A program made the position numbers and the translations under genes. A stretch of 64,000 nucleotides of DNA from Liolophura sinensis (taxonomy: Eukaryota > Mollusca > Polyplacophora > Chitonida > Chitonidae): contig NW_027018124.1 of assembly GCF_032854445.1 (NCBI RefSeq), forward strand, positions 1 through 64,000, in the 5' to 3' direction. Positions 1,780 through 38,476 of the stretch are shown piece after piece. Each line of letters opens with the position of its first letter. Positions within the stretch are counted from its first letter, which is position 1. The notes beneath the pieces are model-generated. The model saw only the letters and a program-made list of their open reading frames with translations. It had not been told where the DNA came from and did not search any database.

Positions 1780-2032
1780 GAAACATTGCCGCTTAAAGGA
1801 AGAGAAAAGAGGTGGATCTCAGAGCGCTGTTCTACAAGATACCAATTCCACTGACATCGCATCAACTGTTGAATTAGGTCATTCTTACGAGAATGTAGTG
1901 AGTTCATCGTTACCTGGAGAGAGCGGACTGAGTAACGCTGCTGGTCCCAGACTTGACTTGTCTAGCGTTGTCCCCGCATATAATAGTCCACAACACATAC
2001 GAAAACATCAATGCGCCTTCACAGTTACCTAA
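1780..2032 (+). CDS. Gene A: last exon, cytoplasmic tail, frameshifted
   Basis: This is the terminal exon of a family member whose other exons lie upstream. The acceptor is a pyrimidine tract plus CAG, and the first base completes a split codon (phase 2), exactly as in the last exons of genes B (12914) and D (28056). The reading begins K-H-C-R-L-K, a basic stop-transfer start matching K-H-W-G-L-K in B. It contains GHSYENV, also present in B, where pY-x-N resembles a Grb2-type SH2 site. The frame ends at a TAA at 2030-2032. However, homology to B resumes from about 1998 in another frame, which stays open to 2130-2132 and carries TYENIN, LYQSV and RLYTTL. A single-base deletion (or two-base insertion) near 1980-1997 therefore separates the ancestral tail end. 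Sequencing error cannot be excluded. Confidence 0.6.
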
Positions 2033-2340
2033 TGGCAATGACAATAGCAGACTGTACCAGTCTGTTAATACAGCGGACACGTCCGAGACCAGACTGTACA
2101 CAACTCTGAGGCCAAACTTAAGGTGGCATTAAAAATAGCTACTCTATAATATAATCGCTCGTGAATATCAATCTTCAGAGATTGTAGCATTTATGATACT
2201 GAGAAATGAAGATATACGAACACAATGGTTTTGTTATCTGTTGAATTCACTATTACATATTGCAGTATCCATTAGCAAAAAAAAAAAAATACTTCTTTTA
2301 GATATTCACCTGTACAAGTGAATGACGCCTACTTGTAAAT

Positions 2341-2520
2341 GACTCACCTTGTAGCATTAGGTAGATCCTGTGTGCTGTGTGACGATTCCAACCAGCGTCA
2401 GAAGCTTTTAATACAGAAACTAGTATATCAAGGATATACCATCAAATAACTTGTTCTTAAATCTGACAATAAGTACAAATATGGACTCTGGCGCACCTCT
2501 TTATAACTGCATATCATTCC
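2341..2520 (+). repeat. Dispersed repeat R, copy 1 (diverged)
   Basis: The segment starting CTTGTAGCATTAGGTAGATCCTG resembles the starts of segments at 31254 and 32272 that read CCTTGTAGCATTTGTTAGATCC, and later shares a TAAGTACAAATATGGAC-like stretch. It lies just after the gene A tail. Function unknown; most likely an old transposon fragment. Confidence 0.4.
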
Positions 2521-2557
2521 GACCAGCCTTAGGTTAGAACTGTACATATATATCATA

Positions 2558-2810
2558 TTTATTTATCTGATTAGTCTTTTACGCCGTACTCAACATTGCT
2601 GCACATACGACAGCGGCAAGGATAATGGGGGGGGGGGGGGGGACCGGGCAGAGCCCCGGGGGAAACATACGACCATACGCAGGATGCAGGAAAATCTTGC
2701 CACGTACGTCCATAGAGGAAGCCAGCGTGAGTTGGACTTGAACTCACATTGATAGGAGGCGCCTGGGTCAACTGCGTCCTGCTTGCATACTAACCCCCTT
2801 GACCACGGTG
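2558..2810 (-). mobile_element. tRNA-related SINE (mollusc type), family 1
   Basis: On the + strand it runs from the TTTATTTATCTGATTAGT tail through the GCCGTACTC box and the GGGCAGAGCCCCGGGGGAAA core to the tRNA-like head, which here includes GGACTTGAACTC, a reversed B-box-like site. A run of 16 G lies inside it at about 2627-2642. It resembles, from memory, the molluscan RUDI V-SINE; the name would need a database comparison. Confidence 0.75.
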
Positions 2811-5334
2811 TGTATTGAGTCATTTCTTTTTTTGTGGTGTGGGTGTTGTCTTTAAGCTCTCTGGGACCCAGCGGTGGGATAAATTTGGATTGATTCCTGA
2901 GTAGGTGTTTGTTGATGGTTATGGTTTTATTGCTCAGGAGAGTTGCGCACCGCATGATATTTGACAGTCTGTCAGACTATGTCCCTATGTTTGATGTGTT
3001 AAAATGAATCATTTTCAATGGGACCAACGCTGAATTATGACACATGATGATCTTTAACACTTCGAACTTTGTGGCACCATTTGCTCAAGTCCAACACAAT
3101 CAGCAAACAGGATCAGGCGGAGTTGTGCCAATGTGGTCGGAATTCGTGACGTGTGCAATACACGGAGATAAAGAAACTATTGTTCACAACCTGCACCTCG
3201 GACTAACGGTAACGCGGAAGTCACCCTGATTGACCCAGTAATGTCACCTATATACAGTTAACGGCATGAGCTAACACCACACTAAAACACACTGAACAGT
3301 TCCCACGCTGGCATATACTGGTGTGTACATGTAAACTGGATATAGATCTACAGACCTACGTGTGTGTAGAGCGTTGCTTCCTCGGCTTTACTTCCTATTG
3401 ACCTACGCTTGAGTTTCTAAAGCTCGATTCCAGCACAATTATTGTCGGTGCACAAAACAAAACTGAGTTGACTAGACGAAATCCAGGCTGAAAAAATTGT
3501 GATCAAACAGGAAAAACTGGAAACAAAAATTGATTTTACATGTTTATTAATGTGATTGAGTTTTAATGCTGGACTGAAGAATGGTTTACCTGAAAACGAG
3601 ATTTGGCTGGATTTTTTTTGGATGCAGAAGAGTTGATATATCAGCATAGAAATCACAGCCTTTCGTCCTGCTACCGACACTCATTCTCATGTAATCATGT
3701 TTTCTTCATGTCCTGTTGCCCTGATGTGCTAGAAAATGTAACGCCTATGATAGACACAACAAAAGCCTTTTATATAAAGCCTTCACGAAACATGTTCTCC
3801 TACCCGAGCAGTGACTTGGATATACCCGAATAGATTTGCAGTGTCATTTAAACAGGTTATGCAGTTAAGGCCTGCATTATTTAGGCCATATGAGTGTAAC
3901 ATATAAAGAAATGTCGCAATTCAAAACCATGCTATCACCCACTTGTGTAAACAGACTAGTACTTTAACGTAGTGTCATGTTCTCAGTACATCAATAAAGC
4001 CTGTATACGTGTGTATTTTTGCCACAGTCCTGTGTACCATTCGTACAGGGTAATTCCTGAGAGTACATTTTACACTACCTGTAAACAGATTCAAATGTTG
4101 TTTATTTCTTTCAGACAGCACCTCTTTTCAGCTGCCTGTAAAATCAATCATACTCGCTACCAAAATCTATCCAGCGACACGTAACAACATTAGCTCTGTG
4201 TATTGATATGTGAAACGTCCACATCATTGCCAGGAAAAAGAAGTTACAGCACGTTTTCTGATTCATAATATTAAACCCATACACCCCGTTGTGAAGGCAA
4301 GAACCCATTGTCTCGAGTGACGTCATAATTACTAATATGCTGGATATTGGGTGGAGTTCAACATGTTTTGAGGGAGGGTGACGTCAGTTTCCTAAACTGC
4401 CATGGATCTTACTTTAAACCCTGTTTCCGTCTCTGCTATGTTTGCAATTGTTTACATGTTTTAGAATGATATCACTTTACTAAATGAATATAATTTTATT
4501 TTATGTCGTATTTTATCTCTCGGCAATATGGCTTTACAGCTGGATGTTAGCTGTTATAAAAAACAACGTTGTCTATTTCCTGATAGTGTAGTGTAGGAGG
4601 TGTTACTGTGTGATGTTTGTTTTTACCTCATGTTGGTGCACCTATGGTAGAACAATTTATTTTCCACGCCCATTCCCCAGCATGCCACTGGTTTGTCAAT
4701 ATTTGTGACTTTACCTCAGGCAATGAGCTCTTAGTGTCGAAATTAAGCTTATGGAGTTTAACATTATGAATTCAAAAACTGTTCTAATTTAATTTGTTTG
4801 CAAGAATATGAACTTTCAACATATCCATGTGTAGAGCTTCAGTTGTTACGAGTAACTGACTAAGGCCAATTTTGGTAGCGAGTGTGACTGATTCTACAGA
4901 CAGCCGGATATAGGCGACTCTCTAAAAGAAAAAGACTATAGTACAACACATATACAATGTAGATCACCACTCGCCATTGCTATACACACGGCTACATCAT
5001 TAATATACTCAGTGGATGCAGGGCTGAATACAATAAATAGCGTTGTGCTGCTTTTGAGGTTATTCACGCTAAAAAAAAAAAAATGGACACCATGTCATCC
5101 ACTCTTTGCCATGTTTTCCATCATCTGGATATTACTGTCGGTTTTCCGGTAATTCAGTATCGAGTGTTATACATGAATTAGAATGTACTCAAAGCTGTAG
5201 ACTATTACTTACATGTCCACGTTATCACAACCATTACCCAAAAGTTTACTGCTACAAAAAAAACAAGCCCTGTCAGTAAAAAGTCCTTCGCATTACTGAT
5301 CATAAGAGAACGAGAGATATAACACATCGTGGAT
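2811..5334. other. Intergenic spacer, no gene seen
   Basis: I see no exon of the receptor family, no RNA gene and no recognisable transposon. Open frames here are short and unsupported. The only motifs noted are two perfect TGACGTCA palindromes at 4318-4325 and 4379-4386. Confidence 0.5.
4318..4386. promoter_or_regulatory. Two CRE-like TGACGTCA sites
   Basis: Perfect 8-bp palindromes TGACGTCA occur at 4318-4325 and 4379-4386, 61 bp apart and about 1.5 kb before the gene B start codon. CREB/ATF proteins bind this motif in animals. Whether the sites act here is unknown; a third copy is at 24993-25000 in intron 1 of gene D. Confidence 0.25.
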
Positions 5335-5344
5335 GAGTGTGAAT

Positions 5345-5765
5345 CGTGTTGTACAGTACGTCTAATTCCAATAAGGACGTAAAATAAATACAAACGCGAA
5401 CTACTCTCGTGAAATCCTTTTTGAGTGAGAAGGAGAAACAGAGGGGATCTAGCATTCAGTGTCGTGTCTTACACGGGTATCAGAATGTATTTGAAGCTGA
5501 CACCTACAGCATACATATCCACATAATAACAGCTGTTTTCTAATCCAGCACAGGTCTGAAATAAAAGCAGTCATGCCATTAACCATTCCTTGACCATATT
5601 GATCATCAAAATAATAAACTATAAATGATGTAAATAGATCACAAAAAAGTATGAATACTCTGGGGTAGAACGTTTTATCCCGATAAGGAAGTAAAATATA
5701 TACACACACAAACCAGTCTCGTGGTATACAATATAACCTTATAGAGTGACAAGGAGAAAAGCTAG
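5345..5765 (+). repeat. Duplicated 5' flank of gene B
   Basis: Two segments, about 5370-5445 and 5680-5765, align with each other: both have an AATAAGGACGTAAAATA / GATAAGGAAGTAAAATA stretch, then TCTCGTG, then GAGTGAnAAGGAGAAA. A related AGGAGAAAAAGAGG string lies before gene D near 22360. This may be a duplicated core-promoter or 5' UTR region. An AAATATATAC TATA-like string lies near 5694 in the second copy. Confidence 0.4.
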
Positions 5766-5835
5766 ATTGTTGTAAACATTGTAGCTCGTGCATGTTGAAT
5801 TTACGCACACGGTGTACACAGCTAACGTGTTGACG

Positions 5836-5923
5836 ATGACAGTCCCTACCCTCCCAAGACGCTGGGGTGAGATTCTGGCTTTAGCGGGTTTAACATGTGG
5901 TCTAACAGCAACATTTGTCACAG
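5836..5923 (+). CDS. Gene B exon 1: signal peptide
   Basis: The reading M-T-V-P-T-L-P-R-R-W-G-E then a hydrophobic run L-A-L-A-G-L ends in T-G, a typical small-residue cleavage region. The donor is ACAG/GTGAGT in phase 1. Matching exons occur at 14571 (copy C) and 22473 (gene D), sharing P-T-L-x-R/H-R-W. Confidence 0.75.
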
Positions 5924-8900
5924 GTGAGTCCGGATATTTGATGTGGCCCCTAATGGCTGTCCTAATTCTTGATCTAAATCAGTGCTTCAACAGTCTACAC
6001 TTGGTGTTTGTCAGGCCAATGCCGTCTGTTCCGCCATCTCTTACACCCTACACCTGTTTAAATCATCCAACGTATGTAGTTCGACACATACAAAGTTATG
6101 TAGTGAGATATTCTTGCAGGCAAATGTAAACAATGAGGCTTAACTTACAACGTGACCAGACACATCAATGAGACATAATCTTATAAAAGCCCTCGACGTG
6201 ATCCCTAAGGTAGGGTTTTGTTATAAGGTGCCTTAGTCAATACATACACCAGTATTGTCAGTAATTGTAGTGGGCAGATTGAAAGGAAAACTACGACCAT
6301 CCGCAGACTGCTGTCAGGCCTTTCCACACACAGCCGGAGAGGAAACCAGCATGAGCTGGACTTGACCTCACTGCGATCACATTGGTGAGAGGATTCTTGG
6401 TCATTGCGCCGGGCTGGATGCTAACTCCCTCGGCCACAGTGGCCCTCTCTCATCTTGGTTAAAGCAGTAACATTTATTGCTTCCTCGGCAAGTGTCATAG
6501 CCAGCAAAAACTTTTTTCTTGTATGAGCGTTAACACCAAGATTTAATGAAAGCCTATGTTGTTTCAAATATGTTAGCCTCAAAACATGCACATATCACCT
6601 AACCTTATAACAGGATGTAATGTAAACCACTCAGGCATCCCTGTGTTATTATACAAGTACATTGAGATAAATTAAACTTATAAATGTAAATACAAGATAT
6701 ACATATAACTAGAAGGAGTGGTGTCATGCAGACTAATCTGCCCATCATGTTGTTCTAACCACAGTGGATCAGGTCCCGAACATTGAGGTCCCAAGATCGA
6801 ATAGCTCCCGCTGTTAAACATGAGTTTATTTATATATTCGATTGCTGCTTAGCAACAAGCAACATGCAGTTATACCCAGGGGCTCAGTTTTTATGGGTGG
6901 GGGAATGATAGCGTCAGGTGTTTTACGTCTCTCGGACTTTGAAAGTGTTAAACCCTGCGACATGACACTGCTGGGAATTTGGGTGAGTGAATAGCACCAA
7001 CGGGGTCAAACGCGCTTATATGAGGTTTCTTACCACCAGTCGAAGCTTTCTTACACAAACCAACAGCCAAGGATAAGTCCTAATATAAACACGTACATAA
7101 ACAAATAGCCCAAATACCAAGTCCCGTAAAAATTGTTATTCAAAACGATTGCCAGATTACGGGAGGTTTGCAATTCCTATGAGTCAGTTATGGATGAGAG
7201 ATTTCTGCTAATAAAACACTAAATGCAGCACGCCATACGTAACGAGAATTGTTAGGTATGTTTCCTTAAGTCAGATAGTTAAACAAAAATACATGATGAA
7301 GTGAACAGTCTGTATTCCGTCTATTTATGTTTACGTCCCCCTGAAAACGAACGACACGCACATATTGTTTTAAAATGTGCGAAATCTCTGTCCTACACGG
7401 AAGTTTATAAAAACATGTGACTCAAATCAGTGTTAAGTAAAGTTTGTCCAGTCACAAACCGCCACTTTAAGCCCTATACACATAATTTCTGATGACTAAT
7501 TAGACGGACCAGTTTTTTGTGAAATAATTTTTTGGGGAGCAATCGAAAATGTGTTGTCTCCACCATTTTGACGAAGTGTCACATGACTGAAAATTGAATG
7601 ATGTTGTCTCTCCAAGACTGCTTCGGTGGCTTAATGGTTTGAGTGTCCGCACGGAAAACCGGAAAGAAAAGTCGTACCAAAGACTTTAAAAATGGTATTT
7701 GTTTCTGCCTCGCTTAGTGCTCCCCACCGAGAGGTTAGAACAAGGAAACGGGACTGGTGGGTCAGGGGTCGGTATAATGTGATTCACAATCACTCTACAA
7801 TTCGTTTGTACAAGCGGCAAAATTTATTTTTATAGTTTATTATAAATGTAGTTGTGGAGCGAACAATCGACTGTAGCTAGGATCTCTTGTGCTGTGCGAT
7901 CCCTGGATATTTATTTCCACTTTTTGTCCTCCCTCATGTATAACAATTCTTGGCTGAATCGCCCTTATCTTTTCATGTTATAGAGACAGAACTGCATCTT
8001 TTTAAACTGAGATTTGACAGATTTATGTTATTAGGTGCTGGACCTGAACAATGTGGAACAAACTCACTGTGTGGCTATGGAGCTAAATGTGACACCAACA
8101 CGACTCAGTGTGCATGCTTGTTTGACGACGGCGACCTGATGAAGAGGGAGGGTAAACCTTTCTCTCTGTATTACTGTTTGGGTAAGTTGAACATGTACAG
8201 TAGCAGTGAAATACAGCACTCGTCTTAATCATCAGATTGTGTAACAGTCTAAACATAGTGAAAATACGCGGTGGAGGCTAAGGTTTATGCCGATAATATA
8301 AAGAAACAACAGCCCGGTTATTGTCCACGGATGAATTACACAAAAGTTATCCACACTGTAGTCATTTTACATGACTAGCAAAGCCAGAGAAAGAGACATT
8401 TCGTCCTTTGTCTAAAACCATAAGGCAAATTGGTGTAGTATGAAGATTTCATAATAACGAATGTTTACGTTATAGATATTGAAATACCTTCTTTTCTATG
8501 TTAGAATAAAATGATGGTTTTTTACCGACACTCGTGTAAACAAAGGAACACTTATACCTTTGTTTTATCAGATGACAGAAGTAAGGTCAAAAACAGATTT
8601 GGCTACATTAAAGCGTTTTCCCAAGGAGGCTCCCTTTATAATAAAAATATGATTACGTGAACCGAGATCATTTGACATAGATATGTTAGGGGGTGATAGG
8701 GGAACAATTTCCCCTCTAGTTACAAGGAGGCCTTCAATGAAAATGCTTCAAAGAAACGCTTTTACATCGAAATGAAGAGATTGGTTATAAAATGCGCGAA
8801 AGCTGTACTAAATCGGGTTATGTATATATCTCACATCATCAACTGAGAGAAAATTCGTCCAAATTACAGGCTTACGTTATAGAACATCATAGTTTAACAT

Positions 8901-11900
8901 TAAAAGAAATTGCACAACCGATACACTCAGTCTCACCGCCTCTATCCATAGGTTCGGGAGTTACACAGTGCGGAGATGAGCTTTGTGATGTTAGAAGAAA
9001 ATATGATAAAATATTTCTTGGAAAAGTCTGTGAATGGAAGGTGAGTGTGATTCAGGAAGACTATGTACAGTTGATAGCAAGCTTTATTTGTCTGTGTCCT
9101 AAGGTGAGGGAGTTACAAAATGTGGAGATAAGCTGTGTGGTTACAAAGCAGAATGTAACACTGACAGGAGTGGGTGTAGATGCTCATTCAACAATGCTGA
9201 ATCAAGAGAACTGAAGGGCACATCTCCATCCCTGTGGTACTGTGTGGGTAAGTTAAGGTAGGCCTACCATGAGAGATGTAAAATTGCCGCTGTAATTCCG
9301 AATTGGTAATCAAATGTATATCCACAACTGAACATTGCTATTGTCAGCCGAAATCACAGACTTCGGTAATACAAGGCTACATTTGGCCGTAGTGCTGCAG
9401 ATTTAAACAGCTATGCATGTATGGATAGAAGGAATTGGCATATTTTTATATAGTTGTGATAGTAACCATAGCAACCCGGTGTTTGCTTGATATCACGCTG
9501 AAATACCGTTCGATGAGCATTTAAAAATGGTAAGTTGTTCAGGTGTTTCCATACGTCTCCACGGATTCCCTGGCAGAGAAACAATCCGCATTTCTTAATT
9601 TCGAGGCGTAACGTGGTTTTTATGGTGCTTTTGTGAGAAGACGTTTGTACCAAACGTGATAAAACTGGAGGATGCTTGCCTTATGACGCCATCATTTGAT
9701 TTCACAGTTAATCGTAGGTAAAAAAGTGGTGTACAAGTTCGTTACAGAATAGCAACACGAGATTTTTTATGTATGTAGCAGAACGTCATAGTGTCTTTCT
9801 GACCAAACCAGAGTTCCGAGAAATTAAAATACTGGGCCACAAAAGTACTTTGAGAGCTCATTTACGAAAGGAAGATGAGTCAATTAGTTGATTATTGCTA
9901 TAATTTCTCTCAGTTTGCAAGAGCAGTTTAACGGCACTCGCTTAGATTAATTCTCATACTCGAATCACATCGTCATGTTCTCCAACTTCACGTACTGAGG
10001 AAGTCAGAATGAATAATCACTGGAAAGCATAGCATTTGATTTTTTCAAGCAAAAATCTGACTGGAGGAAATGACAAGTCTGTCATCTCTTGTCATTTATG
10101 ATCTCAAATGTGGCCTTTTCCAAAAAAGTAAAATATTTTTTATTCAAGTCTTAACATGTAATTCAGCAGACGGCACCAGACAATAGTCTTATTAGCTCAT
10201 CAGCCTTTCGACATGAACGTACACTATAGTCCTAGTTCGCAGAACTGCTTTAACATAACTGTAGTCTACTTTAATACCTAAAATAGTGAGCCGAATTTAG
10301 CATGGTTTTCAGATAGCTACACTGTTTATTCCAGTGCTATAGTATACAAGTTACTAACCATAAAATATACCGCTAGACATGTGTTCTCATTACCCTGTAT
10401 ATTGCAGAAACTTGTAGCCTTGTGGGCATGAGCTGTCCTGACAACACCACGTGTACGGACCCTTCAGGGGGTAGCAAAAGCCTGTGTCAGTGTTCAGAAG
10501 AAGCCACACAATCATCTACAGGACAATGTCTGGGTGAGTACATGGACAATGCACCAGACATCTTGTCATACCATTTGTTGATGCATTAACAACAGTATAT
10601 TGGCGTAGGGGCATATGTCATTTCCGCACCGACAATCACTAATCTTGCTGCATGTGTTAACTATGTTTTGGCGGAAATCTGCTCTAGTCGGCTAACTTTC
10701 CCAACTTCGAACGTGTAGAAGAATTGGTCAGGCGACACACCGCATGCGTAGAAACAAAGGGTAAAGGATTCTGAAAAGTCAGTGTACAAACAGATATGGA
10801 TAAGACTCATTCACTTGAAGCGCAAGTATTGTGTTTTAGTGTAGATGTCTTTCGTGTATTTTTCATCTTCACACTCGCTTCTTTCCTTCTACGCATGTTT
10901 TATAGTAAAATGTGTTTGTAGCCCTAGGTAAAATTTACACCAATATTGAACATACAGCCAGATTTCAAAACCTGGTGTCCTTTTATAGGACTGTTTTTAA
11001 ATTTTCCATTTGGTTGCTTGTTGTCACTTTTTGGCGCTTGTTTCTAAATTTTGAAGTTATTAAAGAGCATGTAAAACGATACAGATTTAAATGTATAGTA
11101 AATCCTGAACGACATGTGAAAGAATACAAAATTTCTATGGCTAGTTGTAGTGAGATGCCCGACAATTTTAACATGTAAGATTACAAGCCAGTAAAAATCT
11201 TGGAGATATAGTCAACGCTGAGATAAAAAAAGCACTTCAATCCCGATGCACACAACCCAATATACAAGTCTACGTTGTTGGCCTGATAAATGTACACCCC
11301 AAATTGCATAACAAATCCTCAGCTCTTAAATCACACCCTTATGGTCTAAATGTTTACCTGTACTTTGGCCGGTAAAAAAAAAATCTTAAAAAGAAATGGC
11401 GAATGTAATTTATAATACAGGTCTTTTTGAGGGCACCTCCTCAATTTATTTGTTTGTTTTCTCTTTTATGAAATTAAAATATTTGAAACAGTATTCTTCG
11501 CCCATATAAGAAAAAAAATCCTAAACATAAGGCATGCAGAATGTTTACACGGATTTTTGCAAACACGGTTCACATCAGGAATAGAACAGGCTGCTGTATA
11601 GTCGGTAAATGTGTCATGTAAGAGATGATGTTTTACCACAATGATATTCACGAACTTAGTTGTGAAACACACATCATTGGCCGTTGCTAACAAGTTTTAA
11701 GATTTGTGAATTAATCCAGTCGCATCATTTGGTAAGACTGCGTCTGTAAAACACATTTTAACCCTATGTGGATCATTAAGTCTGCTTGTCGTTGCTTTAA
11801 TTCAGCTCCGTCAAGCAAATCCACCGCCACGGTTGGCCCTCCTACAACAACAACAACAGCCGCTCCAAACCAAAACAGAAATGTACAGAACGGTAACTTT

Positions 11901-13172
11901 GCCATCTAATTGACAAAAAATTATTTCTCCTAAGTATGTTCCATATTTTGTTCGAACCCGCTGTGTATAATACTCAGATATTTCATGCAGTACTGGAAAA
12001 AAAAACCCAGCACTTTTGTCACAAATAAAAAACACTTTATTGTGCTCATGCATTTTTGAATGTAAAAGTTTTGCTCGACTAAACTTGACTGTTCCATACT
12101 AGTGTAGACAACCAAAAGTATTTTGCAGAGAATTTGATTACATTATAGAAAATTGCATTATAATATCTACTCTCCTGCATGTATTTCCCTGATGGTCAAA
12201 AGTAATATCATTCAGTTGCCGTCAGTCATTCACAGAATAACAGTTTATCACACATTCATAACCAAAATATTAGCAGGTGGAATGAAGCTTGTACGTATTT
12301 TCGTGTTACTTATGTCAGACTCTAAACGTCCCATCCTATGTTATTAGCACACATTAAAAATATCCATTATTTGATTCAATTCCGTGGCTTCAGATTGTAA
12401 TGCCTTAACAGTCGGGCTCGCAGTAGGATTCGGGGAAGCTCTTTGTATCACGGTGATCGCTGCTCTTGCTGTTCTTTGTCGGTAATCAATTTACGCATTT
12501 TCTTGTGCTTTCCTGCATAATTCAGGATTCTGCTAGTTGACTAAGAATCTCCAAGTCCATTTGCAATGTTTCTATGTTATTCCTCATCAAATATGATGAC
12601 AACACAGCATATTGAGTAATTCTAGATAAGGAACGTGTATTATGAAGTTTACATGAACAGAAAAAACAGCTAGGATAAAACCCATAAAAACGATTGTATA
12701 AAATGACGAGAGGCCAACTTTTACCGGTATGTATAACTACTGGCCAATTGTAACACCATCATTGCTGCTCTGCTTTTACTCTCATGCTGATGCATGTTAC
12801 ATAAAGGTTTTAGAAAGAGCAAAACTGTATAAGAAACCTAAACTGTCCACAATCAACAAAATATGAAATTGTAGGGAAATATTCATGTTCACCTTAGCCT
12901 TTCTTTTGCACAGGAAACATTGGGGCTTGAAAGCAAGGGAAGCATGCAAGCTTCAAGGCTCTGTGTTGCAAAATATGAATTCAAATGACAACCTATCAGC
13001 TGCTGAAACCGGACATTCTTATGAGAATGTTGAGAGTTCTCCATCACTGGAAGAAAGCAGACAAAGTAGACGAACTGGCCCGAGAGTTGAAATTGAAATG
13101 GACATAAACGAGACTGATGTACAACCAGTCGGTGATTTCCCAGCATATGAAGGCGTTAATGCGCCATCATAG
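5836..13172 (+). CDS. Gene B: EGF-like type I membrane protein
   Basis: Seven exons join in frame: 5836-5923, 8035-8181, 9104-9247, 10408-10533, 11806-11892, 12394-12481, 12914-13172. All introns are GT-AG; the first five introns are phase 1 and the last is phase 2. The product is about 312 aa: signal peptide (1-29), two EGF-like modules (30-126), a third EB/EGF-like module (127-168), a Thr/Pro stalk with five Thr in a row (169-197), one membrane segment (about 200-225) and an 85-residue tail with GHSYENV. The first ATG of the exon is used; it is followed by an Arg-Arg n-region and a hydrophobic core. The exons were found by eye, so additional small exons are possible. It is a probable plasma-membrane receptor with extracellular N-terminus; ligand unknown. 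The tail ends at a TAG beyond which homology to gene A continues. Confidence 0.7.
6271..6446 (-). mobile_element. SINE family 1, head portion
   Basis: The segment has the ACGACCATCCGCAG, GGAGAGGAAACCAGCATGAG and GGTGAGAG...GGTCATTGCGCC blocks of the SINE at 25641 and ends in CTCGGCCACAGTGGCC. The tail part is missing. It lies in intron 1 of gene B. Confidence 0.7.
7619..7790 (+). mobile_element. tRNA-derived SINE, family 2
   Basis: It starts CGGTGGCTTAATGGTTTGAG, a Pol III A-box-like head, and continues to CTGCCTCGCTTAGTGCTC and GGTCGGTATAATGTGA, blocks that recur in a second molluscan SINE type as I remember it. It lies in intron 1 of gene B. The 3' limit is uncertain. Confidence 0.5.
8035..8181 (+). 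CDS. Gene B exon 2: EGF-like module 1
   Basis: The 147-bp phase 1-1 exon lies between TATTAG and GTAAGT. The six Cys follow C-x5-C-x5-C-x6-C-x-C-x(about 20)-C, close to EGF/EB modules, with the core CGTNSLCGYGAKC. Gene D exon 2 has the same length and CGTNSLCGYGTRC. The exon can be gained or lost without a frame change. Confidence 0.8.
8952..9040 (+). pseudogene. Decayed duplicate of EGF exon 2b in gene B intron
   Basis: The segment starts like the exon at 9104 (GGGAGTTACA, then TGCGGAGATGAGCT against TGTGGAGATAAGCT) after a plausible ATAG acceptor. The following Cys spacing is lost, and the next donor GTGAGT at 9041 would be phase 0, not compatible with the phase 1 exons. It probably is a relic of exon duplication and not used, though a transcript could show otherwise. 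Confidence 0.5.
9104..9247 (+). CDS. Gene B exon 3: EGF-like module 2
   Basis: The 144-bp phase 1-1 exon lies between TCCTAAG and GTAAGT. Residues include CGDKLCGYKAEC and then C-R-C and a final W-Y-C-V-G, the same six-Cys plan as exon 2. Broken copies occur in C at 19264-19315 and 19722-19800. Confidence 0.75.
10408..10533 (+). CDS. Gene B exon 4: EB/EGF-like module 3
   Basis: The 126-bp phase 1-1 exon follows ATTGCAG and ends at GTGAGT. The Cys plan is C-x6-C-x5-C-x10-C-x-C-x11-C, with CSLVGMSCPDNTTC near its start, closer to the classic EGF short loop than modules 1 and 2. No copy was found in C or D. Confidence 0.7.
11806..11892 (+). CDS. Gene B exon 5: Thr/Pro stalk
   Basis: The 87-bp phase 1-1 exon follows TTTAATTCAG and ends at ACG/GTAACT. 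It encodes P-S-S-K-S-T-A-T-V-G-P-P, five Thr, A-A-P-N-Q-N. The five Thr come from an ACA repeat, so length variation is likely. Such stretches are often O-glycosylated stalks next to a membrane segment, which is where it lies. Confidence 0.65.
12394..12481 (+). CDS. Gene B exon 6: membrane segment
   Basis: The 88-bp exon follows GGCTTCAG, enters in phase 1 and leaves in phase 2 (TGTCG/GTAATC). It encodes TVGLAVGFGEALCITVI and then A-A-L-A-V-L-C-R. One Glu lies inside the hydrophobic stretch. The split Arg codon joins to K-H-W in exon 7, giving a basic stop-transfer end. Confidence 0.75.
12741..12784 (+). repeat. Short dispersed repeat S, copy 1
   Basis: The block TGGCCAATTGTAACACCATC then ATTGCTGCTCTGCTTTTACT resembles 22169-22216 (+), 26262-26318 (-), 26620-26668 (-) and 29218-29260 (+). 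All share a GCTGCTCTG-TTTTAC type end or its complement. Confidence 0.45.
12914..13172 (+). CDS. Gene B exon 7: cytoplasmic tail
   Basis: The exon follows TTTTGCACAG, starts in phase 2 and encodes K-H-W-G-L-K, a Ser/Asn/Glu-rich stretch, GHSYENV and then PAYEGVNAPS before TAG at 13170-13172. GHSYENV is shared with gene A. pY-E-N fits a Grb2-type SH2 ligand by general knowledge of SH2 specificity. Confidence 0.75.
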
Positions 13173-13268
13173 TCACCTAATGACAATGACAATAGTGGAC
13201 TGTACGAATCTGCTAATACACGTGGCACGTCAGGGGCCAGACTTTACACAACTCTGAGGCAAACTTAG
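13173..13268 (+). pseudogene. Lost C-terminal tail of gene B beyond a TAG stop
   Basis: Directly after the TAG at 13170-13172 the same frame stays open to the next TAG at 13266-13268. It encodes L-Y-E-S-A and R-L-Y-T-T-L, matching the gene A sequence at 2033-2110. Gene A has CAG where B has TAG, so a single change truncates B by about 31 residues. Stop-codon readthrough is possible but unsupported. Confidence 0.6.
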
Positions 13269-14570: not shown

Positions 14571-14652
14571 ATGCCTACCCTCCCAAGACGATGGGGCAGT
14601 GTACTGACTTTACGGGGTTTATGGTTAACCCTCACGGCTATATCCGTCAGAG
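14571..14652 (+). CDS. Copy C exon 1: signal peptide
   Basis: The reading is M-P-T-L-P-R-R-W-G-S-V-L then a hydrophobic stretch ending S-V-R-G, with a GTAAGT donor in phase 1. It aligns with gene B exon 1 without frame change. The ATG used here is two codons downstream of the position of the B start. Confidence 0.6.
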
Positions 14653-18751: not shown

Positions 18752-18872
18752 TATAGTCGTGTGGAACCCTCAATTGTGGGTATGGAGCTGAGTGTTTCAA
18801 AAACACGGATTGTGTGTGCTTATCTCATAATGACAACAGAATACAGCAGTCATCCAGGTTTTACTGCTTGGG
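18752..18872 (+). pseudogene. Copy C EGF-1 exon relic
   Basis: The Cys frame gives C-x4-C-x5-C-x5-C-x-C and a final F-Y-C-L-G before G/GTAAGT, aligning with exons at 8035 and 25371. The 5' part has lost frame: the acceptor GGAAG at about 18750 does not enter in the required phase, and TAG lies in frame before the first Cys. Confidence 0.55.
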
Positions 18873-19263
18873 TAAGTCAAACATCTGTAGTGCAGAGAAC
18901 TTCAAATAAAGTGACACATTTTTGACTTATTCGTAAGGCATGGGATTTTACACATTGTAGCTTTAACAAGCATGTTATTATATCATTCATGCATAAGCCT
19001 ACATGCGTTCGGCGGCACCAAACTTCCTTAGTGATAAATCATCGCACAACTGACATCGCTATTATCACTTATATAAACATTCATAATATCGTCCTCAGAC
19101 TGTCTCATGTTAAGGTAACGCCTCGACATTTTGTCCTTACGTGCACACATCAAAATGTATGGGCAGCAATTTTAAAACACTATGATACATTGTTTATGAA
19201 CAGAAATATCTATCTAACAACACGTGTCAAAACCAACACTAATAATAAAACCTCGAATTCCCA

Positions 19264-19315
19264 ATGTACTAACACAGCGGACGGACACATTTCCAGCCCT
19301 GTCGTATTGTGAGGG
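19264..19315 (+). pseudogene. Copy C EGF-2 exon, 3' fragment
   Basis: The string CCAGCCCTGTCGTATTGTGA then GGGTAAGTTA matches the end of gene B exon 3, CCATCCCTGTGGTACTGTGT then GGGTAAGTTA. Confidence 0.5.
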
Positions 19316-19420
19316 TAAGTTAAAACGCCTTCAGGATTACAGATTTAGCCGTGAATGTGTTCTCTCCAACAACAATTGATAAACTCATAGGCATAATTTC
19401 ATAAATTCGTTTGGATAAAT

Positions 19421-19653
19421 TTATTTATTTATTCCGTTGGTGTTTTACGCCATACTCAAGAATATTTCTGGTATATGACGACAGGCAGCATTATGGTGGG
19501 GGGAAACCGGGCACAGATAGGTGGAAATCCACGACAATCCGCAGGTTGCTGATAGACCTTCCCAAGTACGGCCGGAGAGGAAGCCAGCATGACCTGGAAT
19601 TGAACTCACAGTGGGTTATTGCGTTACCACAGCGCGCTAACCAGCTGAGCCGT
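19421..19653 (-). mobile_element. SINE family 1, near full length
   Basis: It runs from TTTATTTATTTATTCCGTTG through GTGTTTTACGCCATACTCAA to AACCAGCTGAGCCG, with the tRNA-like head reversed. It is inserted inside the decayed copy C. Confidence 0.8.
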
Positions 19654-19721
19654 TTGAATAAAAGTCCAACAGTACAACACATATAAACTGTACAGAACAA
19701 CAAACTCCTTATTGTCTGTGT

Positions 19722-19800
19722 CCTAAGGTAAGGGAGTTACACAATGTGGAGCTTAGCTGTGTGGTTGAGGTGCAGAATGTAACACAGACAATGACAACCA
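19722..19800 (+). pseudogene. Copy C EGF-2 exon, 5' fragment with stops
   Basis: The start TGTCTGTGTCCTAAGGTAAG then GGAGTTACACAATGTGGAGC matches the exon 3 acceptor and start in gene B. In the matching frame a TAG and a TGA occur within the first 15 codons. Confidence 0.6.
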
Positions 19801-22160: not shown

Positions 22161-22168
22161 AATTCACC

Positions 22169-22216
22169 TGTGACCGTTTACCAGCTATCACACTGTCGTT
22201 GCTGCTCTGGTTTTAC
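22169..22216 (+). repeat. Short dispersed repeat S, copy 2
   Basis: TGTGACCGTTTACCAGCTATC then CACTGTCGTTGCTGCTCTGG and TTTTACG is the clearest copy and matches the complement of 26262-26318. Confidence 0.5.
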
Positions 22217-22327
22217 GTCAGTCTACATCACGAGGTAGATGTCGCCTTTTCTGGCACAGAGCGTACACTTCCTTTTATTCCGGAAGTACAGTATACATGT
22301 GTATACATGCATGAAAGAGTCTCCTCC

Positions 22328-22335
22328 TATATAAT
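22328..22335 (+). promoter_or_regulatory. TATA-like box upstream of gene D
   Basis: TATATAAT lies 138 bp before the gene D ATG and just before a segment (AGGAGAAAAAGAGG) that also occurs before gene B. It is the best local core-promoter candidate, but the distance and start site are unproven. Confidence 0.3.
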
Positions 22336-22472
22336 GCACGACTTAAACTCGTAGATCGAATAGGAGAAAAAGAGGTTATCGTAAAGAAAAGATTTTATCC
22401 CTGTAAGGATTATAGAAATAGCAAGTGAATGGTAACTTTACACTGACGGCGTACGCAGCTTACATGTGAAGG

Positions 22473-22605
22473 ATGGCAGTCCCTACCCTCACACATCGCT
22501 GGGGTGTGATTCTAAGGAGGACAGCCCCTACTCTCACATCTCGATGGGATGAGATTTTGACTATAGCATGCATCTACCTTGTCCTGACTTCTACACTCGT
22601 CACAG
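22473..22605 (+). CDS. Gene D exon 1: signal peptide with internal repeat
   Basis: From the ATG the reading has two copies of a P-T-L-T-x-R-W unit (PTLTHRWGVIL and PTLTSRWDEIL) before the hydrophobic core I-A-C-I-Y-L-V-L. Genes B and C have one unit. The donor is CACAG/GTTAGT in phase 1. Confidence 0.7.
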
Positions 22606-25600
22606 GTTAGTCTGGATAATTGGCCTATGTGGACGTTGGTAATACCGAGTTAGTTCTTGATCTACATAACTGAGTTTACTATGATGTTTTTCTCACAGAT
22701 GTCGCCTTTTTCGCCTCTACCACGACCCTGAAACATTGTCAGATTCACAATGAGACATTGACGTATTTTAATATTCGTGCGGTCAAAATGAGCAATGAGG
22801 AAAGCCTACCATACACAGTATCAGCATGTCAATGTGATTAATCTTTAAAAATTCAAGCGACAAGGTTATGATCAACCTAGTATTTTCATATAGGAACCCA
22901 CGATCATCAGTAATACTTGTACAATAGTATCGGTATTTATAACACTCTGTATACTGAAGGGTAATTTATGATCTCTGTTAACGTCACAGCAAGAGAATGT
23001 TTTTTTTTAAAATTACAACTCTACTGTGACTGTTTTGAAAAACGTAAGAAAAGCGGGTAGAGGCTGTCACGCGTGAACTTCCTGAAAAACCTTTTCAGGC
23101 TGAAACATGCGCAAGGGACCCATATAAACAGCTTGCACAAGGCACCCATATGACCAGAGTGCACAAGGTACCCATGTGACTAGAGTGCACAAGGTACCCA
23201 TGTGACTAGAGTGCACAAGGGACCCACATGACCAGAGTGCACAACGGACCCATATGACCAGAGTGCAGTAAACGTAAATCACTCGCCCAGCCCGGCAAAC
23301 TTTCAAAACAACCCGGGAATGTAGGGTATAGCCGACATGCGGCCACCGCCGGCAAAGTGAGGTCACATGTTCGAATCCATCTCTGGCGGAATAGTAAGAA
23401 GAAATACCACTATGCTTTCCTCAGCAGTCAATCCTTATCATACATTTTATTGTCGCCTGGGGTGTTACGTGTAGGGTGCGACGGGTGCTAAATGTCAGTC
23501 AGGCTTTTAAAAGTGTTATAACCTTGAAAAACTGGGCAAGTAGGGTGTGGTGGAATTCTGACAGGTATGCATGATTAACTCTGCGTGGGTTGACAGGTCA
23601 GTAAGCTTATGTAAATTTTAGAAATCATCAGTCGATAAACCAGCTGTCAACCAGCAGCTTCATAATACAGACACGTTAAAAGACTAAACATCTAAATATG
23701 GGGTCCTTTGTTATTTTTGTTCCATCAGCACTTTTTTTCACTTTCGTTAGGATACGAGATATGGCTCAATTATAGATGTAAGAGACGTCTATTCATACAA
23801 CTCTAAAAGAAGCTTGCCATTCATGTTCACATTTGTTACTTGGAAATCTGCGTCTGTTGGTCTAAATGTTTAACAAACAATCATCATGAAGATAACAGCC
23901 TGTGCCTGCGCAATTCTGTATATTTTTCTCTGAAGACACATATATTCCTCTACATTGCTACAAGCTGTGACATCTAAAGGAATCATATAGATATACAAGT
24001 GCCTTAGATAAGTGCTTAAACTCTTTAACTTGTTATCTAAATTAGTCATTGTACACAATTTACAAAACAACATTTACGTGTGAGTAAGTACTAGGCTAAA
24101 ACTTTCTTAAAAGGTCGTGAACTTCTGTATGCGTGTTAGATGCAACTTGATGAACATACATTGTTACTAAGCGGCGTAACGTATTGTACGTACTTTCAGA
24201 TTCACATACGGCATAACGAAACACTGGGGATGATATTAGGTTTTGTCATACAAACATTGGCGCCACCGTTATGTTTATTTCCCAACTCCAACGAACAACA
24301 TCTATGGGAAGTTTTTTTTTCAATTGCAACTCATCGAAATAGGTTTGATGGAGTCAGTAATTGTTTTGTGTGTGTGTTATATACTCTGTGCCTATCAGTG
24401 CAAAATGTGTGACAACAGTCATTTCTGATTATTGAAATTCCTTGAATAGAAATAGTATAAAATTGCTTCTTTTGTATCTGAAACTAAAAGATGAATCCTT
24501 GATACGCATGTATAATAGCTCGTATGAGTTACAAACACACAAACACACAAACACACAAACACACACACGAACATTCATTACAACTCAGTAGCCTAATTTA
24601 TTTTAGGTTTCAACCACCAGCCACATATTACAAACCCAAAGGCTTGTATGCAGCGTATTTCAGTCTGAAGGTCATCTTGGAATAAAAAGGTTAGGTTGTG
24701 TCAACATGCAAAATTGCGTTCTGGGGCCCGTTCATCGAATCAGTCGCAAACTGCCCCTGGTACGATTTCCTTGACAACGTGTATGGAAGAGATACATCAC
24801 CGTGGTAAATGCGCTTGAAGGAACGTTGCGACTCCTTGGTAGACTGGGCTCTTGATCTGTTGTGGCCATGATGTGGAACAGCGCAAAGGCAAAAATTTTT
24901 GCGTAAAAGGACTTTTATGGCTTGTTTTCTATTGTTTACTTGTTTGTTGGTACGTTCGTCACGTCGCTCAAGTAAATGGATGAGTTAGGAAATGACGTCA
25001 CCCATCCGTCCAACCAACACTAAGAATATAAATTATGTTATCAACTCTATCTTCAGTTAATAAGGACAACTTCCAAAACTCATAGACTTTGAGGTAGTCT
25101 TTTAAATATGTGTGTTACTAATGGGCATAATATTTCCCTGCACTTTCATACAACAATGTCCCGTTAGGGAAGCTATCATTTCTACACAACCCACTCATAT
25201 TGTTGTATTGCTATTCTACCATCTTCATAATGTAAAAACGGGATTTTTTCCACTTTTCTTACGTTCCTCGATGAATGACAAATCTTAGCCTCATCGTCGA
25301 TCATGATTTCAGATTAACGAGAAAAAAGAGTATGCATTACAACTCACATTTGATTGATTTGTATTATTAGGTGTGATGACTGAACAATGTGGAACAAACT
25401 CACTTTGTGGCTATGGAACTAGATGTGAGACTAAGACGAGTCAGTGTGTATGTTTGTCTGACAACGGCAACTTGAGGGAAAGGCAGGGCAATCATCACTC
25501 TGAATTTTACTGTTTGGGTGAGTTGAACATTTACATTACCAGTAAAATGCAGCACGCTGTTTAATCATATGATAATATCAATATTATATACGTTGCACTA

Positions 25601-28386
25601 GGTAGTGTACTTTAAATATCAATGTTTAATAACATATAGATTTATTTATTTGATTTGATTGGTGTTTTACGCCGTACTCAAGAATATTTCACTTATACGA
25701 CGGCGGCCAGCATTATGGTGGGTGGAAACCGGGCAGAGCCCGGGGGAAACCCACGACCATCCGCAGGTTGCTGGAAGACCTTCCCACTTACGGCTGGAGA
25801 GGAAGCCAGCATGAGCTGGACTTGAACTCACAGCGACCGCATTGGTGAGAGGCTCCTGGGTCATTACGCTGCGCTAGCGCGCTAACCGACTGAGCCACGG
25901 AGGCCCCAATAACATATAGATGCAAATGACTTCGCATGGCTAATATACCCGGATAGCGTAGACAAACATATGTGTAGGATAAGGAAAGCAATGCAAATAT
26001 GGAAAAAAATGGCACATTGTTGCAGGCTGACGATTCTCGTAGAATTCCGTCTCCTTATGCTCATCTTACAACTGTCAAGGAAACATGCTTGTTGCGTCTA
26101 CTGAAAAAAAAACTGTGAGAAAGCTTGGAGTCCAGTGACAATTTGCGAATAACACTTCTTTATGTCACCAATATTGAAATAATTTCTTTTCTGTGTTAAA
26201 ATGAAATGGTGGTCTGAAGGAACAAAGAAATATGAAATAAAATTAAAGACATACAGCATAGAGAGTAAAAACAGAGCAGCGGCGACAGTGTGATAGCTGG
26301 CAAATGGTCACACGTAACCAGTAAAGTACAGCCTCTTGTCAACTTACCTAAGTCAGGGTTTTATTCTAACTGTTTAAGTAAAACCTTAAGTATTGCCAAA
26401 ATGTAGGCCTCCTAGCTTTAGCAGAATTATGTAAGAACATGGAGTGGCGTTAATTGCAATTTAATAGATGTAATTTGTCTAGAATTGCCCAAAATGCTGT
26501 GTTGTAATCACATTTAACACACAAAATAATAAGCCAATGCAAAGGGACCATGCCTTCCTGATGTATAGTTCACAAGCAAAAGTCAGGTTTATGCAGAAAT
26601 GCAAAATAAAGGTCTACTGAGAGTAAAACCAAAGCGTTGAAGGCTGTGTGACAGATTGCAAATGGTTAGGCTTAATCATGTTGTGTCACCCTCTGTTATG
26701 GACAGTATATAGTGGTGAAGTCTGTAGTTATACTGGAAGGCTGTCTTGAAATAGTTATGGTTATGTCTGTAGTTATACAGGAAGTGTCTGTTGAAATAGC
26801 TTTGGCTATGTCTGTAGTTATACAGGAAGTTAGCTGTGGTTATGTCTGTAGTTACACAGGAAGTGCCTGTTGAAATAGCTCTGGCTACGTCTGTAGTTAT
26901 ACAGGAAGTCCCTGTTGAAATAGATATGGTTATGTCTGTAGTTATACATGAAGTCCCTGTTGAAATAATTCTGGTTATGTCTGTAGTTTTACAGAAACGC
27001 ACTGTTGACATAGATATCGTTAAGTCTGTAGTTATACAAGAAGGGAATGTTGACATAGCTATGGTTATTTCTGTAGTTATACAGGAAGAAAATGTTGAAA
27101 TAGCTATGGTTATGTCTGTAGTTATACAGGAAAACACTGTTGAAATAACTATGGTTATTGTAGGTTTATCTAAATCTAACTGTTATATGTGCGAAGAAAT
27201 ATATATGAATCGGTGTCCATCGGCCAGGCAAGAACATTGCGACATTCGCCTGTTTCTTGTTGGACAGTCCATGTACATGTATCTTCAGGTGGATTACCCA
27301 GATGCCAACCAGCTCGGTGTAAGACGTTTGTGGTTGGGTGATTGTCAGATCCAATTTCAGTAGTGGCTATAGGACCGGAATTGGTGCAATCAACACACTC
27401 CGAAGATCTGTTTTAGACTAAGTCCATATATAAGAGAAAACATGTTTCTCCGAGTTGGACATGTAACAATGTGAGATATATGGGCCATTTCAATGATGAT
27501 ATCTCAACTGAACAAAATGGCGCATTTGTTCGAAACAAAGACAAATTGAAATTCCATCCCTTTTCGCCAGATTTAAACGCAACTTGGAATAATCATGGGG
27601 CTTTTGTAGTCAAGAATGTTTAATCATTTTTACATAATTCCATTTGCAGAAAACGATTTACAGAAATTCATCATAGTTTTGGCAACAGGAGCGGGAGGGG
27701 CGATGACTTTAGTGGTTGTTATGGTTGTTGTCCTTGTTTGGTAAGTTTGTCATCCACGATGAATGATAAGCCAAACAGGTGTATAACCCCCAAATATCAA
27801 GCGTTGCACATTACCTAAAATGTCAGCTTTAAGAAAATATAAAACGGCTCGACGAGTTACAATTAAAGTACATTGTGAGTATCATTGCCCCCCATGTCCA
27901 ACGTTTATAATAATACAACTAATCATTTAGGTATTCTCAATCATATTCAGAGCGTAATATACTTATAAGGTTTATGAGGATATAAAAAAAACGCAAAAAA
28001 AAATTTAAAGGATCAACAAGAAACGTTGAAAGACAAAAAAACCTTCTGTTCACAGGAAACATCGAAGCTTGAGGGCTGTGGTAGGACGCGCATATCAATG
28101 CGATGTTCTGGTAAACAAGCACTCCCATGACAACGCATCAGCTGTTGGATCATGTCATTCTAATAAGAATGTCGTGAATTTGTCATTACCTGGAGAGAAA
28201 ACACCCAGCAGCCGAGATGGTGCCAGAGATGATATGCCCAGTGTTGATGTCCCCGCACATGAGCATCAACACACCAACGAATGCATCAGTGTTCCTTTAC
28301 AGCCACCTCATAACAAAGGCACTAGCGCACTGTACGAATCTGCTGATACACCGGCCCCTCAGAGGTCTGAATGTACACTTCTGTGA
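22473..28386 (+). CDS. Gene D: short EGF-like type I membrane protein
   Basis: Four exons join in frame: 22473-22605, 25371-25517, 27650-27740, 28056-28386, giving about 233 aa. The order is a long signal region (1-44), one EGF-like module (45-93), one membrane segment (about 99-123) and a tail of about 110 residues. Splice phases are 1, 1 and 2, the same as in gene B, so the lack of modules 2 and 3 and of the stalk keeps the frame. Those exons were searched for in the 25517-27650 intron and not seen, though a diverged exon could be missed. The tail keeps a LSLPGE stretch and L-Y-E-S-A but has S-N-K-N-V where A and B have S-Y-E-N-V. It is a probable surface receptor; function unknown. Confidence 0.65.
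23107..23268 (+). repeat. 26-bp minisatellite, about 6 copies
   Basis: The unit GTGCACAAGGTACCCATGTG plus ACTAGA recurs at exact 26-bp steps (for example 23133, 23159, 23185, 23211, 23237). It lies in gene D intron 1. Confidence 0.85.
24529..24570 (+). repeat. ACACAAAC microsatellite
   Basis: Repeated ACACAAAC units followed by ACACACAC, in gene D intron 1. Confidence 0.85.
24723..24851. mobile_element. MITE-like element with terminal inverted repeats
   Basis: The left end GGGGCCCG...AGTCGCAA (24723-24749) pairs with the complement of the right end TTGCGACT...TGGGCTC (about 24825-24851). The matching positions include GGCCC / GAGCCC, GT, and a perfect AGTCGCAA. The element is about 129 bp, with no coding capacity and no clear target duplication. 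The GGGCCCGTT start resembles common animal MITE ends. Confidence 0.45.
25371..25517 (+). CDS. Gene D exon 2: EGF-like module
   Basis: The 147-bp phase 1-1 exon lies between TATTATTAG and GTGAGT. It has CGTNSLCGYGTRC, then C-V-C and a final F-Y-C-L-G. It is the same length as gene B exon 2 and very similar to it. Confidence 0.8.
25641..25907 (-). mobile_element. SINE family 1, full length with 13-bp target duplication
   Basis: The complete copy is flanked by perfect direct repeats AATAACATATAGA at 25628-25640 and 25908-25920. The tail TTTATTTATTTGATTTGATT is on the left and the tRNA-like head (GCGCGCTAACCGACTGAGCC in this strand) on the right. The perfect flanks show target-primed insertion and a fairly recent event. 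It lies in gene D intron 2. Confidence 0.92.
26262..26318 (-). repeat. Short dispersed repeat S, copy 3
   Basis: GAGAGTAAAAACAGAGCAGC then GGCGACAGTGTGATAGCTGG is the reverse complement of the block at 22169-22216. Confidence 0.5.
26620..26668 (-). repeat. Short dispersed repeat S, copy 4 (diverged)
   Basis: GAGAGTAAAACCAAAGCGTT then GAAGGCTGTGTGACAGATTG and CAAATGGT aligns with copy 3. Confidence 0.4.
26715..27165. repeat. 45-bp minisatellite, about 10 copies
   Basis: The landmark GTCTGTAGTTATAC recurs at 26720, 26765, 26810, 26844, 26889, 26934, 26979, 27024, 27069 and 27114. All steps are 45 bp except one of 34. After the short unit, the + strand stays open from 26836 to 27363 with a 15-residue repeat of MVMSVVIQEVPVEIA type. 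The minus strand is also open across the array, with a Ser/Thr-rich repeat. Because 45 is a multiple of three this can arise by chance. It lies in gene D intron 2. Confidence 0.9.
27650..27740 (+). CDS. Gene D exon 3: membrane segment
   Basis: The 91-bp exon follows CATTTGCAG, enters in phase 1 and leaves in phase 2 at TTTG/GTAAGT. It encodes N-D-L-Q-K then FIIVLATGAGGAMTLVVVMV and V-V-L-V-W, with no charged residue in the membrane stretch, unlike gene B. Confidence 0.75.
28056..28386 (+). CDS. Gene D exon 4: cytoplasmic tail
   Basis: The exon follows TGTTCACAG in phase 2 and reads K-H-R-S-L-R, then a His/Asn-rich stretch, N-L-S-L-P-G-E and L-Y-E-S-A-D, ending S-E-C-T-L-L before TGA. Compared with B, a one-base deletion in the last 15 codons moves the terminal Y-T-T-L motif out of frame. 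Only two Tyr remain. Confidence 0.7.
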
Positions 28387-38422: not shown

Positions 38423-38476
38423 CGGCGAACTTTTAAGTATGGCTTTTATCTCATCAAAAGCAGTCTGGCACTCGTC

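Follow-up and report, generated by a model that had tools for sequence, protein, structure and literature searches.

Receptors of the Draper/CED-1/MEGF10 type combine a cysteine-rich EGF-type ectodomain with a single membrane pass and a tyrosine tail acting via Src- and Syk-type kinases, and the motifs of that tail are NPxY plus YxxL. The immunoreceptor tyrosine-based activation motif (ITAM) has the consensus YxxL/I-x(6-12)-YxxL/I in the tail, its inhibitory counterpart (ITIM) has the consensus [S/I/V/L]xYxx[L/I/V], and Yxx-hydrophobic is also a clathrin-adaptor sorting consensus. To our knowledge, few upstream receptors are known for the invertebrate Syk pathway. Parts of one study report that invertebrate Syk/ZAP-70 homologs co-occur with CARD-CC and Bcl10, and its authors infer ancient upstream ITAM-containing receptors; they also name Shark as an ITAM kinase, the link to Draper coming from a title cited there (PMC5978004). 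In the parts of the sources relied on here, the oyster protein CgIgIT2 is a molluscan membrane receptor with an ITAM and five Ig domains outside (PMC11999971), and the fester co-receptors (FcoR) of Botryllus are a linked multigene family of 53 loci in a polymorphic allorecognition locus, encoding type I receptors with Ig and sushi ectodomains and varied tyrosine tails that carry an ITIM, a hemITAM or a core YxxI/L/V (PMC12065747). The locus described here lies in the genome of the chiton Liolophura sinensis (GCF_032854445.1), in a window of 64,000 nucleotides that forms bases 1-64000 of an unplaced 75-kb scaffold, C185 (NW_027018124.1; 75,163 bases). Four gene copies, A to D, are found between positions 1,780 and 28,386. 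As read from sequence, they are a worn-down, outlying block of an unnamed family whose main cluster, on C2, comprises about 28 predicted cell-surface receptor genes. Our best explanation of the family as a whole, to which we give a probability of about 0.62, is that its members are type I membrane receptors that recruit SH2 proteins via tyrosine tails.

Copy B (5836-13172) is the sole complete seven-exon gene in the window. Its exons and the associated remnants are as follows.

5836..5923, plus strand: copy B exon 1, signal peptide with PTLPRRW, ending in phase 1
8035..8181, plus strand: copy B exon 2, module M1 with six cysteines, CGTNSLCGYG-type, phase 1-1
8951..9041, plus strand: M2-like exon remnant just upstream of M2, outside the gene model (by eye; weak match 8951-8986)
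9104..9247, plus strand: copy B exon 3, module M2, weaker CGTNSLCGYG-type match, phase 1-1
10408..10533, plus strand: copy B exon 4, module M3, weakly EB/EGF-like, phase 1-1
11806..11892, plus strand: copy B exon 5, Thr-rich stalk, phase 1-1
12394..12481, plus strand: copy B exon 6, membrane segment, Kyte-Doolittle peak 2.26, ending in phase 2
12914..13172, plus strand: copy B exon 7, type I tail with HSYENV and AYEGV, TAG at 13170-13172
13173..13268, plus strand: remainder of the type I tail past the copy B stop, with LYESA and RLYTTL; open frame in seven C2 type I tails (L022-L028)

Joined in the order signal, M1, M2, M3, stalk, membrane and tail, across introns with AG/GT borders throughout and phases 1,1,1,1,1,2, these exons give a product of 312 amino acids (aa). 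The same phases and exon order recur in the C2 paralogs L037 and L038 (seven exons each), and the phases of L044 also match (six of its seven exons joined, with a tail 3′ in the same span). The common exon plan proposed in an earlier note on this DNA therefore stands for copy B and these paralogs but not for the rest of the window, where copy A is a tail only, copy C is broken and copy D is short. The PTL-x-RW signal exons that the note described were recovered at 5836, 14571 and 22473, its CGTNSLCGYG-type modules at 8035-8181 and 25371-25517 (weaker at 9104-9247 and 18760-18873), and its membrane exons, by a hydropathy check, at 12394-12481 and 27650-27740. In-frame joins were found for copies B and D but not for copy C, whose signal exon and module are out of frame. 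Hydropathy peaks fall at residues 13 and 208 of copy B and at residues 28 and 101 of copy D; both fit the plan of a type I membrane receptor (signal, ectodomain, one membrane segment, cytoplasmic tail), as judged by composition only. In L038 and L044, the signal peak lies below the 1.6 threshold. The tandem arrangement of receptor-like genes that the note proposed, with signal, cysteine-rich modules, a single membrane pass and tyrosine tails, is supported, and the family extends far beyond the window. The family is real, expanded and, by these predicted features, receptor-like, and the window copies are its degraded outpost. Among them, a receptor close to the standard form, though shortened in its tail, could come from copy B alone.

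Genome-wide searches covered the assembly of 609,464,459 bases in 632 contigs, and counts for large families are lower bounds. The main site of the family is C2:13.30-13.81 Mb, with 27 tail exons, two of which are weak matches whose sequences were not fetched (13443771, E 0.010; 13404962, E 0.89). A single further gene lies at C2:17.26 Mb, and C13 has related module exons. A type II tail used as query returned 36 rows at E<=1, which resolve into 28 C2 tail exons (27 in the cluster and one at 17.26 Mb) and three window exons. Module M1 of copy B matched 60 module places (46 at C2:13.31-13.80 Mb, two at C2:17.27 Mb, nine on C13 and three on C185), while the signal exon gave 32 rows at E<=1 (29 on C2 and three in the window; weakest E 0.63) and M3 gave 44 rows, extending to other places on C2, C13 and C114. 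Searched against the whole genome, copy B exons also found copy D M1 (E 1.5e-15), the copy A tail (3.9e-6), the copy C signal (9.8e-4) and the copy D signal (0.117). Broken copies are present on C2 as well (L036, L048, 13304866 and 13353334). Several queries of the literature, judged on titles and abstract openings of the best-ranked 10-20 papers, returned no description of this chiton receptor family.

Elsewhere in this genome (G000), C13:11.69-12.11 Mb together with C114:84908 forms a second cluster with M1/M2/M3-type modules. L042 on C13 contains a membrane-type exon; tails of types I, II and IV sought in L041 and L042 gave chance-level matches (best E 0.082), and a type III tail sought there at E<=1e-3 gave no match. 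More distant M3-like exons occur at C2:7.76-10.50 Mb and 13.08 Mb (E 1.8e-4 to 0.008), and suggest a wider superfamily.

Tail types I, II, IIb, III and IV were distinguished. The sites of types I and II resemble HSYENV, TYENI/AYEDV, LYESV/A and LYTTL, and type IIb (L050-L053) is similar. Type III tails (L045-L049) are 177-191 aa long as entered, with 7-9 tyrosines, and type IV (L054 and copy D) reads SNENV or SNKNV. The tyrosine tails reported in the earlier note are present at 1780, 12914 and 28056; its SYENV motif occurs in copies A and B only, copy D having SNKNV. A plain SYENV pattern search is at chance (7 matches against 7.12 expected), and support for SYENV tails comes from the aligned exons and not from the raw pattern count. 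In an alignment of 14 tails, 55 of the 56 cells at four conserved positions hold a tyrosine, the exception being L031; the last two of copy B lie past its stop. Most intact C2 members have at least four conserved tail tyrosines in Yxx-hydrophobic and YxN contexts.

Motifs were counted in 23 of the 28 C2 tail exons, leaving out L036 (frame-shifted), 13304866 and 13353334 (internal stops), 13443771 and 13404962; L048 was entered after its frame break and L033 without its first residues. Yxx[LIV] occurs at 80 sites, against 19.65 in shuffled tails of which 0/1000 reach 80, and is present in 23/23 tails. YxN occurs at 35 sites, against 12.00 (0/1000 shuffles reach 35). There are two YxxM (1.16 shuffled), and NPxY occurs in 0/23 tails (0.79 shuffled). 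A relaxed ITAM is found in 8/23 tails when V is allowed at the first motif (0.39 shuffled) and in 16/23 when V, A or P is allowed (0.67 shuffled). On these counts, the doublet Y-x-x-V/A-x10-Y-x-x-L is ITAM-like and not a strict ITAM.

The same tyrosines could instead be endocytic Yxx-hydrophobic sorting signals of non-signalling adhesion or scavenger proteins, alike through recent duplication. The motif also fits the clathrin-adaptor consensus, and conservation runs along the whole tail: in the 14-tail alignment, 41 of 111 columns reach 90% or more, which puts the chance of four conserved tyrosine columns at about 0.02, (41/111)^4. However, the excess of YxN and the frequent YE contexts would suit SH2 docking better, and at least four spaced tyrosines per tail seem more than sorting needs. 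We consider the sorting explanation doubtful.

The SH2 recruitment suggested in the earlier note is supported for the family by enriched motifs, conserved tyrosines and a Syk-type gene, but is weak for the window copies, which are short of most tail motifs (copy B stops early, copy A is frame-shifted and copy D lacks SYENV). An SH2 search of the genome gave 45 rows, of which the stretches examined cover 32. The SH2 exon at C7:10461246 has SYK as its best PDB match (6.3e-12), with SYK/ZAP-70 as the best 11 of 60 matches listed; for the exon after it, 11/11 matches are SYK or ZAP-70, and further C7 exons resemble a second SH2 (by eye). A Syk-type kinase gene is predicted from these SH2 exons to be encoded elsewhere in the genome. 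A tandem-SH2 gene on C9 is SHP-2-like (by eye). L055 (C7:35497500-35498400) holds a tandem-SH2 coding set lying close together in more than one frame, like the intron-split exons of L056, and is possibly a retrocopy (by eye).

Under the SH2-recruitment reading, a typical member would have a signal peptide, modules M1 and M2 of an unnamed type, an EB/EGF-like M3, a Thr-rich stalk, a membrane pass and a cytoplasmic tail. It would be expressed at the surface, where clustering by ligand would lead to phosphorylation of the tail; the phosphorylated tail would dock SH2 proteins of the Syk, Grb2 or phosphatase type, and the cell, perhaps a haemocyte or an epithelial cell, would then respond. An immune or recognition role is plausible by analogy.

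The ectodomain modules were compared with domain libraries. All eight M3 sequences match EB (Pfam PF01683) at E<=1 (best E 6.4e-5), the window M3 scoring 14.5 bits, under the 24.3-bit cut-off, and 0/15 M1 and M2 sequences match any Pfam family at that threshold. The joined copies B and D and the tails gave nothing useful in Pfam, with no EMI, EGF, Ig or sushi match for joined B or D, and copy B and the tails had no useful match in NCBIfam, a prokaryote-centred library. A module profile had no meaningful match among solved structures (one, E 0.18). Of the modules that the earlier note called EGF-like, only M3 resembles EB/EGF, and weakly. The note recognised no named family, and for the domain libraries searched we agree.

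Selection was estimated as pooled Nei-Gojobori dN/dS with bootstrap intervals. Module, signal and membrane sets were stop-free, non-identical exons found by tblastn at E<=1e-10, and the tail set was 14 of 16 fetched tails (L030, which is copy A, and L036 omitted; the copy B stop masked). The intervals lie below 1 for M1 (0.61; 20 sequences; 0.40-0.93), M3 (0.55; 8 sequences; 0.32-0.96), the tail (0.63; 14 sequences; 0.47-0.87) and the signal exon (0.46; 9 sequences; 0.27-0.84). The M2 loop between the fifth and sixth cysteines has a dN/dS of 2.20 (1.17-4.77), one of 23 uncorrected estimates, and the matching loop of M1 has 0.77 (0.45-1.45).

Several results weigh against the reading of the family as functional SH2-recruiting receptors. 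M1, M2 and the tails are named by no domain library searched, and AlphaFold gives M1 a poor model (pLDDT 55.9). Broken copies are frequent (A, C, L036, L048 and others). The dN/dS is not significantly below 1 for M2 (0.64; 17 sequences; 0.38-1.07), for the membrane exon (0.83; 6 sequences; 0.26-4.05) or within tail types I (0.82; 0.54-1.33) and II (0.71; 0.48-1.15); such ratios are also open to distortion by gene conversion, and pairs of paralogs do not count as independent. A strict ITAM occurs in 1/23 C2 tails (0.21 shuffled; 193/1000 shuffles reach it) and in 0/3 window tails, and a strict ITAM receptor reading was rejected on the C2 count. ITIM is not enriched (4/23 C2 tails, all of type III, against 4.84 shuffled), and the type IV tail L054 has just two tyrosines. 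The shuffles ignore shared ancestry, so that 80 Yxx[LIV] sites are not 80 independent events. The argument for an immune function comes entirely from analogy.

Ectodomains and tails do not share one history. Copy B, with a type I tail, is closest to L002, with a type III tail: their ectodomain DNA is 0.90 identical (a 1.6-kb stretch with introns, 12 genes compared), and their tail proteins 0.28. For types I-III (eight genes), ectodomain identity is 0.826 within a tail type and 0.804 between types, a difference reached by 294/5000 permutations. Over all types, including IIb and IV (12 genes), the ectodomain goes with the tail type (permutation p 0.0004), because IIb and IV have their own ectodomains; in both tests, tails were assigned by position and strand. 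The disagreement between copy B and L002 suggests that ectodomains were exchanged among tail types, and exchange or gene conversion seems to have occurred among types I-III. Alternative tails of one gene were also considered as the cause of the mismatch and rejected: in the window, type III matches nothing but the related tail exon of copy A, away from copy B, and each gene among the nine sequences searched shows its tail matches at a single place. L002 carries a membrane exon of its own, which lies after M3 and before the type III tail. Several tail types with closely related ectodomains in types I-III imply similar binding heads coupled to different outputs.

A more specific proposal is that of paired activating and inhibitory receptors, with the same ectodomains recombined onto tails of opposite sign (I/II ITAM-like, III inhibitory). 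It draws on the small difference in ectodomain identity within and between types I-III, on type III tails that are 18-31% identical to types I and II, on LEYDEI, an ITIM match, in 4/5 type III tails, and on the Syk-type kinase gene. It has to contend with the single strict ITAM and the ITIM count, which falls below the shuffled value, with the association of ectodomain and tail type over all types, and with a break of frame near the start of L048, the type III tail of L002 and one of five such tails; moreover, signalling sign is unreadable from sequence. Paired receptors of this kind look unlikely. The same low probability applies to a mollusc recognition system like the vertebrate paired receptors, in which about 28 genes would reshuffle heads onto tails and feed Syk, with the M2 loop diversifying under selection.

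The remaining copies in the window are listed below.

1780..2032, plus strand: copy A tail exon, type II; AG acceptor 1778-1779, SYENV codons within 1883-1897, stop 2030-2032
1992..2117, plus strand: remainder of the copy A type II tail in a shifted frame, with TYENI, LYQSV and LYTTL
14571..14652, plus strand: copy C signal exon with PTLPRRW
18760..18873, plus strand: copy C M1 remnant, weaker CGTNSLCGYG-type, with no in-frame join to the signal exon
19727..19789, plus strand: copy C M2 remnant with two stops
22473..22605, plus strand: copy D exon 1, signal, with the PTL-x-RW start doubled (PTLTHRW and PTLTSRW)
25371..25517, plus strand: copy D exon 2, module M1, CGTNSLCGYG-type
27650..27740, plus strand: copy D exon 3, membrane segment, hydropathy peak 2.33
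28056..28386, plus strand: copy D exon 4, type IV tail, with SNKNV replacing SYENV and LYESA retained

Copy A is shifted in frame by one extra base ahead of its second tyrosine, and no exon but the tail was found for it in the window. An extra base also occurs in the related C2 exon L036, within a few positions of that in copy A, with different surrounding letters. No membrane or tail exon of copy C was found 3′ of its modules. Copy D joins signal, M1, membrane and tail in frame into 233 aa; M2, M3 and stalk were sought in it and not found, and it could make a one-module receptor. Its introns hold minisatellites at 26713-27158 (45 bp x 10.2) and 23108-23267 (26 bp x 6.2), and a SINE-like dispersed element at 25640-25905, with similar pieces near 6270, 15430, 19430 and 30410 (by eye).

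One possibility is that this block is no more than an unplaced relic: a duplicate of the C2 cluster (or a divergent haplotype of it) that is decaying and yields no working receptor, while the C2 family is functional. Such a relic is compatible with SH2-recruiting receptors as the explanation of the family as a whole. Copy B stops 32 residues short of L025 and L026, at an early TAG before LYESA and RLYTTL, copy A is frame-shifted, copy C is unjoined, copy D lacks the first tail tyrosine, and all lie on a 75-kb scaffold. Nine places on C2 align with more than 1.1 kb of a 1.8-kb query from copy B (two exons with introns) at 74-84%, and shorter segments reach as much as 90%; on this evidence, copy B is either a distinct locus or a strongly diverged haplotype. 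Copy D and L017 agree at 93-96% over about 1.5 kb and at 81-89% beyond it. Against decay stand the open frames and good splice sites of copies B and D, and the fact that the C2 relative L054 also lacks the first tail tyrosine; the tails of copy D and L054 differ by dS 0.099 and dN 0.058, which is not decay-like, yet the changes are too few to decide. Overall, we put the relic slightly short of an even chance. Allelism of copy B to C2 was considered and is not supported, its top ectodomain identity among 12 genes being 0.90 and the heterozygosity 1.24% in the part of the source that reports it for the published chiton genome (PMC11068029). A very divergent haplotype may still be involved, most so for copy D.

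Downstream of the copies, the minus strand of the window carries open reading frames (ORFs) resembling the reverse transcriptase/RNase H and integrase of a Ty3-type long terminal repeat (LTR) element at 38021-40488 and the endonuclease and reverse transcriptase of a non-LTR retrotransposon at 41451-45691 (both by eye). Positions 46000-64000 hold a satellite-like array whose repeat unit is about 549 bp (best lag 549; commonest repeated 20-mer spacings 549, 548 and 1098).

The C2 cluster offers a concrete candidate set of upstream receptors in a mollusc with a Syk-type SH2 gene, and its receptors with common ectodomains but different tail types make the head/tail question directly testable. Among known systems, EB module proteins are approached by the chiton family in its M3, which matches EB weakly, but its M1 and M2 lack an EB match. 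It resembles Draper/CED-1/MEGF10 in overall build, and differs in lacking an EMI match (copies B and D), in having three short modules rather than many EGF repeats, in the lack of NPxY among the C2 tails counted, and in forming a large tandem cluster. CgIgIT2 is likewise a molluscan membrane receptor, but with the five Ig domains reported in the part of its source used here, and joined copies B and D match no Ig domain. The comparison with FcoR, again as far as the part of that source extends, differs at the ectodomain, where copies B and D have no Ig or sushi match, and in that FcoR belong to a polymorphic locus while the chiton family is known from one assembly; the likeness lies in a linked multigene family of predicted type I receptors with varied tyrosine tails.

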